Below, in pieces: positions 4,164 through 6,563 of a DNA stretch of 23,237 bases. Origin of the DNA: Alphaproteobacteria bacterium. GTDB lineage: Bacteria; Pseudomonadota; Alphaproteobacteria; RF32; CAG-239. The first letter of the stretch is position 1; the number at the start of each line of letters is the position of its first letter. The translations under genes and the position numbers were made by a program. The notes below the pieces were generated by a model. The model saw nothing but the letters and a program-made list of their open reading frames with translations. It ran no database searches and was not told the origin of the DNA. The DNA is taken from positions 1 through 23,237 of the forward strand of contig JAGCFG010000043.1 of the NCBI GenBank assembly GCA_017650255.1, in the 5' to 3' direction.

Positions 4164-4179
4164 ATACAATATATAGTCT
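4164..4179 (+). promoter_or_regulatory. NrdR box 1
   Basis: ATACAATATATAGTCT fits the 16-bp NrdR consensus (acaCwATATaTwGtgt) at its core CAATATATAG. It lies 15 bp from a second, matching box, exactly the tandem layout NrdR needs. NrdR represses nrd operons when bound by dATP/ATP. nrdR itself is not in this window. Confidence 0.85.
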
Positions 4180-4194
4180 ATTTACTTTTTTTTA

Positions 4195-4210
4195 ATACTA
4201 TATGTAGTAT
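4195..4210 (+). promoter_or_regulatory. NrdR box 2
   Basis: ATACTATATGTAGTAT is a near-perfect palindrome with the NrdR core CTATATGTAG. Its start is 31 bp from that of box 1 (about three helical turns), so both sites face the same side of the DNA. A candidate promoter overlaps it (TTTACT 4181-4186, TAGTAT 4205-4210, 18-bp spacer), so bound NrdR would block RNA polymerase. Confidence 0.85.
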
Positions 4211-4260: not shown

Positions 4261-6315
4261 ATGTCTGACCACGAATACAATGCATCAAACATTAAAAACA
4301 GCACAAAAATTGACAGTGTCATAAAAAGAGACGGCACATTGTCTCCATTTGACGGCGATAGAATTTTTAATGCTATCTTAAAAGCCGGTGAAAGTACCAA
4401 AGAATTTGGCGAGCAAGAAAGCTATTTGCTTACCGGCCAGGTCTTAAAAGTTTTGGATCACAAATTTTCTGATTCTGTTCCTTCTATCGAAAGTATACAA
4501 GATATTGTTGAGCAGGTTCTCATCTCCGCCAACTATTTTGCAACCGCAAAAGCTTACATTTTATATCGTGATCAACGCAATCGCGCTCGTGGTGACCAAA
4601 AAGTTGTTGTCGATGTAGAAAGCTCCATCAACGAGTATCTCGAAAGATTGGATTGGCGTGTAAATGCCAATGCCAACCAAGGATATTCCAACGGCGGACT
4701 TATTCTTAATGTTTCCGGCAAAGTTACTGCCAACTACTGGTTAAGCCACGTATATCCTGCCAATGTCGGTGAGGCTCACCGCAACGGTGATATTCATATT
4801 CACGATTTGGATATGTTGGCTGCATATTGTGCTGGTTGGTCATTGAAAAACCTCCTTCACGAAGGATTTAATGGTGTTCCAGGCAAGGCCGAAGCCGGTC
4901 CCGCAAAGCACCTTTCTGCCGCCATTGGCCAGATGGTAAACTTTATGGGTACACTCCAAAATGAATGGGCCGGAGCGCAAGCGTTTTCTTCTGTTGACAC
5001 ATATTTGGCTCCGTATATTCGCGCTGACCACATGGCCTATGAACAGGTTGAACAATGCTTCCAAGAACTCATCTACAACTTAAATGTTCCTTCTCGCTGG
5101 GGTTCACAAACACCGTTTACCAACTTTACTTTTGACTGGGTTTGCCCTGACGATCTTCGCGACAAACATCCTATGATTGCCGGTGTCGAACAGCCTTTCA
5201 CCTATGGTGACCTCAAACCCGAAATGGACATGATAAACAAAGCCTATATCACCATTATGATGAAAGGCGATATCAAAGGCCGTCCGTTCACCTTCCCAAT
5301 TCCTACCTATAACATGACACCTGATTTCCCGTGGGAAGATGAAAATACCGAACTTTTGTTTGAAATGACCGCAAAATATGGTCTGCCTTATTTCCAAAAC
5401 TTTATAAATTCAGTCTTAAAACCAGGGCAGATTCGTTCAATGTGCTGCCGTTTGCAACTCGACTTGCGCGAACTTTTGGCAAAAGGCAACGGACTTTTCG
5501 GTTCTGCCGAGCAGACAGGCTCAATTGGAGTAGTAACCTTTAACTGCGCTCGTCTCGGATATGTATATAAAAATAACGAAGCAGGTTTGTTTGCCAGAGT
5601 TGACGAGTTGATGAACATTGCTCGCACTTCTCTTGAAATTAAGCGCAAACTCATTCAGCGCCTTATTGACAATGGCTTGTTCCCGTTCACAAAACGTTAT
5701 CTCGGCACCTTGCGCAATCACTTCTCAACAATCGGTGTCAACGGCATCAACGAGATGATTTTGAACTACACTAACGGCGAACATAATATTGCCGACGAGT
5801 GGGGCAGGGCATTCGCAGAAAAATTCCTTGATTATATCCGTGACAGAATGGTTAAAATTCAAGAAGAAACCGGCCACATGTACAACTTAGAGGCTACTCC
5901 TGCTGAGAGCGCGACCTATCGCTTTGCCCGTGAAGACAAAAAGCGCTTCCCTGGCATTATTCAAGCAGGAACGGAAGAGAACCCGTACTACACAAACTCT
6001 TCACAACTGCCGGTTAACTTCACCGACGATCCTTTCGAAGCCTTGGAATTGCAGTCTAATTTGCAGTCCAAATATACTGGAGGAACTGTTTTACACCTTT
6101 ATATGGGGCAACGCATATCCTCGGCCAAAGTATGCCGTGATATTGTAAGACGTGTTCTTTCCAACTATCGCTTACCATACATTACCATCACTCCAACATT
6201 CTCCATTTGTCCGAAACACGGCTACATTTCCGGAGAACACAAATACTGCCCGATTTGTGACGAAGAAAAATTGGCAGAAAAAAGAAAACGCGCCACTTCT
6301 GAAGAAGTTGCATAA
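4261..6315 (+). CDS. nrdD: Anaerobic ribonucleoside-triphosphate reductase, large subunit without its glycyl-radical tail
   Basis: This is the class III ribonucleotide reductase catalytic subunit, which reduces NTPs to dNTPs without oxygen. Residues about 17-110 are an ATP-cone (VIKRDGTLSPFDGDRI ... AKAYILYRDQR), the allosteric dATP/ATP sensor. The barrel domain follows, with the active-site finger RSMCCRLQ (Cys395-Cys396). A zinc site sits near the end: Cys650, His653, Cys663 and Cys666 (FSICPKHGY ... YCPICDEE). The protein then ends with a charged tail ATSEEVA at residue 684. The RVxGY glycyl-radical loop that closes a normal NrdD is absent and is found in the next gene. GAGAAGGA lies 12 bases upstream of the ATG, a rather long spacing. 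The NrdR box pair precedes the gene. Confidence 0.95.
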   Translation: MSDHEYNASNIKNSTKIDSVIKRDGTLSPFDGDRIFNAILKAGESTKEFGEQESYLLTGQVLKVLDHKFSDSVPSIESIQDIVEQVLISANYFATAKAYILYRDQRNRARGDQKVVVDVESSINEYLERLDWRVNANANQGYSNGGLILNVSGKVTANYWLSHVYPANVGEAHRNGDIHIHDLDMLAAYCAGWSLKNLLHEGFNGVPGKAEAGPAKHLSAAIGQMVNFMGTLQNEWAGAQAFSSVDTYLAPYIRADHMAYEQVEQCFQELIYNLNVPSRWGSQTPFTNFTFDWVCPDDLRDKHPMIAGVEQPFTYGDLKPEMDMINKAYITIMMKGDIKGRPFTFPIPTYNMTPDFPWEDENTELLFEMTAKYGLPYFQNFINSVLKPGQIRSMCCRLQLDLRELLAKGNGLFGSAEQTGSIGVVTFNCARLGYVYKNNEAGLFARVDELMNIARTSLEIKRKLIQRLIDNGLFPFTKRYLGTLRNHFSTIGVNGINEMILNYTNGEHNIADEWGRAFAEKFLDYIRDRMVKIQEETGHMYNLEATPAESATYRFAREDKKRFPGIIQAGTEENPYYTNSSQLPVNFTDDPFEALELQSNLQSKYTGGTVLHLYMGQRISSAKVCRDIVRRVLSNYRLPYITITPTFSICPKHGYISGEHKYCPICDEEKLAEKRKRATSEEVA

Positions 6316-6356
6316 TTAACCAAAATCTGATAAACTATTAACTAGGGAGAAACCAA

Positions 6357-6563
6357 ATGAACGTAATAAACATTGAAGACATTAAATTGACAGATGCTGA
6401 GAGACAAGAGTGCGAGATTTGGACTCGTGTTATGGGATATCATCGTCCTGTATCAGAGTTCAACAAAGGCAAAAAATCAGAGTTTTATTCTCGCACATAC
6501 TTCACAGAGAGCAAAGCCGTATTGGGCTGCTGCTGTGACAACATGGGCATTGCTGCTGAATAA
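6357..6563 (+). CDS. Separate glycyl-radical domain of class III RNR
   Basis: This 68-residue protein matches the extreme C-terminus of fused NrdD enzymes: CEIWTRVMGYHRPVSEFNKG followed by KKSEFYSRTYF. Gly27 in RVMGY aligns with the radical glycine that NrdG oxidises. The gene has its own strong ribosome site (AGGGAGA, 6 bases from the ATG), lies 41 bp after a clean nrdD stop, and ends 3 bp before nrdG, so it is an intended gene and not a frameshift remnant. The first 15 residues (INIEDIKLTDAE) may be a docking segment for NrdD. After the usual family end it carries about 19 extra residues with three consecutive cysteines (58-60). A stand-alone radical domain recalls GrcA/YfiD, the spare radical domain of pyruvate formate-lyase. 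Function by homology; the split is seen directly. Confidence 0.88.
   Translation: MNVINIEDIKLTDAERQECEIWTRVMGYHRPVSEFNKGKKSEFYSRTYFTESKAVLGCCCDNMGIAAE

Follow-up and report, generated by a model that had tools for sequence, protein, structure and literature searches.

The window described here is the whole 23,237 nt of contig JAGCFG010000043.1 (assembly GCA_017650255.1), from a gut alphaproteobacterium of the GTDB lineage RF32; CAG-239. Its forward strand carries three consecutive genes for a class III ribonucleotide reductase (RNR): nrdD, for the catalytic protein; an open reading frame (ORF) for a 68-aa protein; and nrdG, for the activase (Table 1). The nrdD product lacks the glycyl radical loop, which is encoded by the small ORF, beginning 41 bp beyond the nrdD stop codon and in a different frame (the two ORFs start at 4261 and 6357). 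An initial annotation of the window had described nrdD as stopping after its zinc site and being followed by a loop gene with its own ribosome site and then by nrdG; the profile matches confirm this layout.

The NrdD body matches NF006126 (PRK08270) with 1108.6 bits against a cut-off of 548, reaching only profile position 657 of 684. An ATP-cone (PF03477) occupies residues 19–107, and residues 137–677 correspond to positions 2–538 of the 562 in PF13597. Positions 530–562 of the latter are supplied by the 68-aa protein (E = 5.7e-8), so that the two products tile the NrdD profile completely (NF006126, PF13597), with no piece absent. The Thermotoga NrdD structure (4coi) divides in the same way: the body aligns with it up to residue 615 and residues 20–53 of the small protein with 614–647, Gly27 falling ungapped on residue 621, the radical site of the Thermotoga enzyme (PMC4493059). 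The PDB match of the small protein is weak by itself (E = 0.74) and was used only jointly with the PF13597 match; the top PDB rows for the small protein alone, a neural cell adhesion molecule, were taken as chance. C190 and C395/C396 are invariant in the 34 rows of alignment A3, and the MCCR finger-loop class to which the latter pair belongs is described in PMC9669993. Since NrdD has its zinc ribbon after the final barrel strand and ahead of the Gly621 loop (PMC4493059), the cut in the window falls between ribbon and loop. An AAE C-terminus (window 6552–6560) is shared by 117 of 120 listed small proteins, with a variable stretch before it, and an AE ending is found in 10 of 78 viral loop proteins. 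The NrdD bodies of gut relatives mostly end in VA.

Table 1. Features of the nrdD–nrdG region, in window coordinates
Feature	Position	Strand	Basis
NrdR-box-like 12-mer ACAATATATAGT, first of a tandem pair	4166..4177	not assigned	motif match
NrdR-box-like 12-mer ACTATATGTAGT, second of the pair	4197..4208	not assigned	starts 31 bp after the first
nrdD body, 684 aa: ATP-cone, catalytic barrel, zinc site, without glycyl loop	4261..6315	+	profile matches
Cys190 codon, conserved active-site cysteine, YC motif	4828..4830	+	invariant in alignment A3
Cys395-Cys396 codons, finger-loop MCCR, candidate thiyl-radical cysteines	5443..5448	+	invariant in A3
Presumed zinc site C650-x2-H653-x9-C663-x2-C666, near body end	6208..6258	+	all four invariant in A3
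Ribosome-binding site AGGGAG, 7 nt before small-gene ATG	6344..6349	+	sequence
Putative small glycyl radical subunit, 68 aa, loop RVMGYHRP, C-terminus AAE	6357..6563	+	PF13597 530–562
Gly27 codon, presumed radical glycine	6435..6437	+	aligns with Thermotoga NrdD Gly621; invariant in alignments A1 and A6
nrdG, radical-SAM (S-adenosylmethionine) activase, 237 aa	6567..7280	+	TIGR02495 NrdG2, 197.3 bits, cut-off 131.15

The window's assembly is a draft of 152 contigs, and the initial annotation had itself raised a sequencing error, fusing the two frames once corrected, as the way in which the split could prove false. Such an error, or a dying gene, is so improbable that it may be set aside. Of the 33 genomes of the window's family, 32 have NrdD, and 31 of these encode the loop apart from the body, as judged by profile search and reading of the DNA; in the remaining one (G008) the locus is interrupted by a contig end. 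Open frames of 773–807 aa had suggested a fused gene in eight genomes (G002, G005, G006, G024, G025, G027, G029, and G054); in all eight the DNA places the loop in a separate short frame. The split is also seen in complete plasmid records (Cupriavidus necator pHG1, Bradyrhizobium ottawaense, and Paracoccus ferrooxidans), where the body is annotated as “ribonucleoside triphosphate reductase” and the small ORF as “nrdD” or “hypothetical protein.” The search for loop-only small proteins proposed in the initial annotation was productive, with 885 of 886 candidates matching at E ≤ 0.001, though some could be pieces of larger proteins. Eighty loci from named genomes (the top 80 among at least 539 confirmed relatives, a choice that favors look-alikes) contain 81 small ORFs; 64 follow an NrdD body, 15 are lone, two are cut by a contig end, and none is fused. 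The ratio of non-synonymous to synonymous substitution rates (dN/dS), for the window against ten relatives, is far below 1: 0.04–0.12 for the small gene (six of the ten pairs with finite dS) and 0.02–0.04 for nrdD (seven of ten), so that both genes look to be under purifying selection.

Rejoining of the two products, by recoding, frameshift, protein ligation, or splicing, might be suspected since fused homologs exist; it is very unlikely. Across 62 loci the median distance between stop codon and ATG is 34.5 bp, and all three frames are represented (27, 19, and 16); in the window, too, the two ORFs are in different frames. Where body and small ORF do share a frame (25 loci, including a few duplicates), one to five stop codons intervene, TAA, TAG, and TGA all occurring, and this variety disfavors recoding. 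The small gene has a ribosome site of its own, and of 200 loop ORFs (pooled loci, not de-duplicated) 176 have a Shine-Dalgarno-like motif ahead of them, vs. 1319 of 8498 random ATGs (15.5%). A gap of only 41 bp speaks against intein splicing, although no search aimed at inteins was made.

A second full-length NrdD elsewhere in the genome, which the initial annotation had likewise considered damaging to its reading, was not found by PF13597 search of the window's assembly (G000, 79% complete). PF02867, the class I/II catalytic subunit, was not found in 31 of the 33 family genomes, G000 included, and is present in G021 and G022; 19 of the 31 without it are at least 98% complete and have the split NrdD. 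Since neither a class I/II reductase nor a second NrdD was found, the split enzyme is probably a working one, and it is probably the only RNR of the window's lineage.

We read the locus as encoding a class III ribonucleotide reductase of two chains, with the radical glycine on the 68-aa subunit, and put the probability of this at about 0.9; the small protein is very likely a trans-acting radical subunit. The reading draws on the gene split, its conservation, the selection on the genes, the finding of no other RNR gene, and the complementarity of the pieces with NrdD structures; from these we infer a radical on G27, docking in trans, and exchange of subunits. The initial annotation had also proposed a radical glycine on a separate small chain that would need to dock into NrdD, and the profiles support such an arrangement. 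The ATP-cone, barrel, zinc site, and active-site cysteines (C190 and C395/C396) would come from NrdD, and the small subunit would contribute G27, the radical glycine, together with the loop that enters the barrel in fused enzymes. NrdG, encoded by the neighboring gene, would remove hydrogen from G27, and the activated loop would then seat in NrdD beside the finger-loop cysteine, starting catalysis. After cleavage by oxygen the small subunit could be remade for roughly one tenth of what NrdD would cost. In fused NrdD the glycyl domain is mobile, flipping outward to meet NrdG and inward again for catalysis (PMC12662201, PMC11226230), so the split only takes away a tether. GrcA acts on pyruvate formate-lyase (PFL) in trans (PMC8683613, PMC12338860). 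In two viral contigs considered below, the loop lies 2 kb from the NrdD body (G719) or on the opposite strand (G744), which also counts for two chains. GrcA reportedly restores even an inactive full-length PFL, according to the title of a 2022 paper by Kammel and Sawers.

An AlphaFold prediction (72 sequences) for the body of a relative joined by its natural spacer to the small protein has a predicted local distance difference test score (pLDDT) of 84.9 and a predicted template modeling score of 0.80, with the loop part (701–740) at pLDDT 82–95, and it superposes on NrdD structures through the loop (for 4coi, 525 residues at 3.1 Å, model 100–729 on chain 9–634). A first model from 29 close sequences (pLDDT 62, loop blocks 27–35) was not used, and alignment A4, which placed rows of small proteins inside the body, was discarded.

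Several points weigh against the two-chain reading. The model is a read-through proxy from locus L136; fused sequences are present in its alignment and docking is thus partly built in, so it is supportive rather than decisive. The dS values are near saturation, and four of ten pairs for the small gene and three of ten for nrdD gave no finite value. With the window's assembly 79% complete, the absences there rest on relatives. In G023, of the same family and rated 100% complete, neither NrdD nor a class I/II reductase was found; either the absence of any RNR gene is tolerated there or the gene was missed.

With the class III enzymes of Thermotoga maritima, Prevotella copri, T4, and Streptococcus thermophilus the window enzyme shares the ATP-cone (not present in all), barrel, finger-loop cysteines, zinc site, NrdG, and glycyl loop; unlike in those, the loop is on a separate protein rather than on the NrdD chain. 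By the features of a class III RNR (NF006126), the body score, the cysteines, and the adjacent NrdG are all as expected, and a radical glycine on the same chain is absent; as far as sequence can tell, this is a two-chain variant and not a standard class III member. A small, separate radical-glycine protein that works with a large chain lacking a radical glycine is known from GrcA/YfiD and T4 Y06I, the latter phage-borne (PMC8683613). Unlike GrcA/YfiD, the window protein matches the RNR family PF13597, with no match to PF01228 at E ≤ 1. GrcA rescues a normally fused enzyme, whereas the large chain here has no loop of its own to replace, and no fused NrdD was found in the 79%-complete assembly. 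The comparison of the window with GrcA/YfiD made in the initial annotation therefore needs correction, and the enzyme would be an obligate two-subunit one; a replacement of oxygen-cleaved subunits, also suggested there, would be consistent with this layout. A stand-alone loop away from nrdD, as expected of a GrcA-like RNR spare part, is found only in the lone copies described below, and the idea fits these chromosomal and phage copies better than the window.

Two other fragmented reductases bear comparison. The nrdD of Aeromonas phage phiAS4 is in several ORFs with a 41-nt gap between the last two (PMC3653736); unlike the window, it is in three broken pieces, linked to homing endonucleases or unknown causes, and in the passage on it the cut is not assigned to the glycyl loop. 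Pseudomonas aeruginosa has an RNR in two gene pieces, according to a reference title in PMC9669993, but of class II, without a glycyl radical. The same species was considered as a case of split NrdD and dropped, the suggestion resting on an NrdD length for which PMC4860495 gave no support.

Splits of this kind recur within the window's family. A PFL is cut inside its glycyl radical domain in G018 (L306:2238-4665) and G019 (L307:765-3183), where a body of 693 or 691 aa is followed by an 80-aa ORF with the motif RVSGYAVNF and a radical-SAM activase; in G019, PF01228 positions 2–49 are on the body and 52–106 on the small ORF (Pfam). A second split NrdD, presumably of a Bacillota type, is found in G024:C4 (L003:1090-4045), where a 757-aa body is accompanied by a glycyl ORF of 60 aa and an NrdG-like gene of its own. 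The order of body, small glycyl ORF, and activase is that of the window, but the enzymes differ, L003 being a second NrdD type and L306 and L307 PFL. Three enzyme types are thus split in one family: the window-type NrdD, the L003 NrdD, and PFL.

The split is not peculiar to the window's genome: several Pseudomonadota share it, with the pieces annotated separately in public records. NrdD was found in 26 of 249 sampled Pseudomonadota genomes, the window's included; 18 reach profile end 562 in one frame and eight do not. Rhodopseudomonas is also split (loci L203 and L205), and in Thiothrix the small piece is annotated with no body gene in the gene table, which is incomplete. Among the best 120 of at least 7999 homologs of a fused relative, 81 include the loop and the other 39 stop beyond the zinc site, as classed by their own sequence alone. 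The loop of fused relatives in the same subtype is the same one, joined through a linker of 8–45 residues (measured in 80 of the 81). A tree of 139 bodies (FastTree) implies at least 10 changes between the fused and split states, five of them forced by well-supported branches. With linkers so variable and changes so repeated, the covalent link appears dispensable, easily lost and gained.

In C. necator the radical was reportedly assigned to G650 of NrdD by Siedow et al. in 1999. The pHG1 protein (L209:771-3144) is 676 aa long (76.2 kDa) and without the loop, which is in the next ORF, the 66-aa H16_RS32675 that separates nrdD from nrdG; its residue 650 is a glycine of the zinc-site stretch CPTHGYLAGEH. 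On these grounds the assignment may be wrong and in need of revision.

Lone loop genes occur on chromosomes at 11 loci (L157, L158, L161, L166, L168, L172, L173, L177, L181, L184, and L191). One gene family lies near the lone copy in six of these (L157, L166, L168, L177, L181, and L184), its checked members, at L157 and L184, being ClpB-like; at L181 the operon copy is on the same contig. Tandem 12-mer pairs, which resemble NrdR boxes, precede nrdD in 16 of 21 relatives, against a background of 24 in 2000 windows, and precede the lone loop gene at all nine of the 11 chromosomal loci tested; no pair was found before the three prophage copies. The pattern was derived from the window (4166 and 4197), which is therefore no test of it. 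NrdR is encoded in the window's assembly (G000:C66), and a search of 39 genomes found a match in 36. The three lacking one include G014, which carries L168 and has weaker boxes. In the window's genus no spare loop copy was found, G001–G007 and G009–G012 each having one body and one loop match. In prophage-like L039 and L200 the loop gene lies between a cell-wall hydrolase and a phage integrase, and L196 has neighbors from the same families. In G035 lone loop genes are found among plasmid-like or integrative-and-conjugative-element-like genes, as judged by eye (L044 and L046), with two further copies, one beside nrdD.

Viruses carry the loop as well. A scan of viral contigs with alignment A1 gave 213 relatives, of which 80 were kept; PF13597 searches of these 80 whole contigs found an NrdD body over the cut-off in one and the loop only in 79, one of them with an extra sub-threshold match. 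Genes near viral loops (139 scanned of 237 listed) include integrases, endolysins, and terminase, portal, and head-tail genes. A second loop type (RRITGYLVGTLDRFN, the query being from another split NrdD in G024) gave 265 viral relatives, of which 80 were kept, 75 of them without an NrdD body in the fetched stretch. When 50 whole contigs of this type were searched, 45 held the loop alone; in the others nrdD is fused (G746), in pieces (G743), or has its loop elsewhere (G719 and G744, as above, and G728, where it is close by). The pieces in G743, a 238 kb contig (L264), may reflect introns, inteins, or another code. Many of the viral records are fragments without a completeness estimate, so a body could lie outside the record. 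Small proteins of the second type number at least 7984 in the protein collection, some of which may be fragments. In an annotated phage collection the window protein found one record, an archaeal virus, and the second type 14, of which 11 are unannotated fecal phages. The lone copies suggest that some phage genes labeled “nrdD” or unnamed (phrog_4132) are only a loop module of 40–70 residues. PMC3653736 describes phage nrdD genes that are split, and many phages that have nrdD without nrdG, in a passage without mention of a lone glycyl module. The lone loop frame at L126 (viral contig G380) contains one TGA, which could be recoding or decay.

As an explanation for these copies we lean slightly, by analogy with GrcA, towards the loop as an exchangeable module, split several times, kept as spares under RNR control, and carried by many phages and some other mobile elements that would deliver an oxygen-intact subunit to the host reductase, in the way that T4 Y06I serves PFL; a role as a “spare part” in oxygen repair is plausible. 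It is possible, if doubtful, that fission was neutral, in a tolerant linker, with no benefit from the two-chain state and with lone and phage copies as by-products of gene traffic. The split point does lie in the linker whose length varies in fused relatives, split and fused forms do alternate on the tree, and the window's genus has no spare copy. Gene traffic alone fits less well with the tandem NrdR-like promoter kept by the lone chromosomal copies (with the reservation about G014), with the splitting of PFL and a second NrdD type in the same family, and with the phage loops, which look to be under purifying selection (median dN/dS 0.083 over 12 pairs and 0.04 over 13, with 14 and 16 further pairs saturated).

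Phage and plasmid copies could also be inhibitors or decoys that occupy the host's NrdD or NrdG and so steer nucleotide supply, which seems improbable. With one NrdG query for each set, no activase was found beside the loop on the same strand in the first viral set, and one was matched in two of 75 lone second-type loci; without an adjoining activase these loops would have to act on host proteins, as a decoy would. A decoy, however, need not keep the radical glycine, which is present in 79 of 79 aligned first-type viral loops, including all 17 that fall outside the search pattern containing that glycine; the 80 of 80 in the second type are uninformative, as every row fits a pattern that demands glycine. 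The precedent of T4 Y06I is also an activating and not an inhibiting one (PMC8683613). Nothing found in the open-licence PMC literature appears to describe an NrdD whose glycyl domain is split off, a spare part for RNR, phage copies of this kind, or a split PFL.

RNR is essential, and in the usual picture of class III the radical glycine is on the catalytic chain. Since what is probably the only RNR of the window's lineage departs from this single-chain picture, docking and radical transfer between chains should be open to direct study. Only YfiD/Y06I is described as validated in the text of PMC8683613, where spare parts for other glycyl radical enzymes are considered possible. The lone loop copies make testable the question left open there, whether such proteins exist for enzymes beyond PFL; if the loop is indeed an exchangeable module, it would be a spare-part system for another glycyl radical enzyme.

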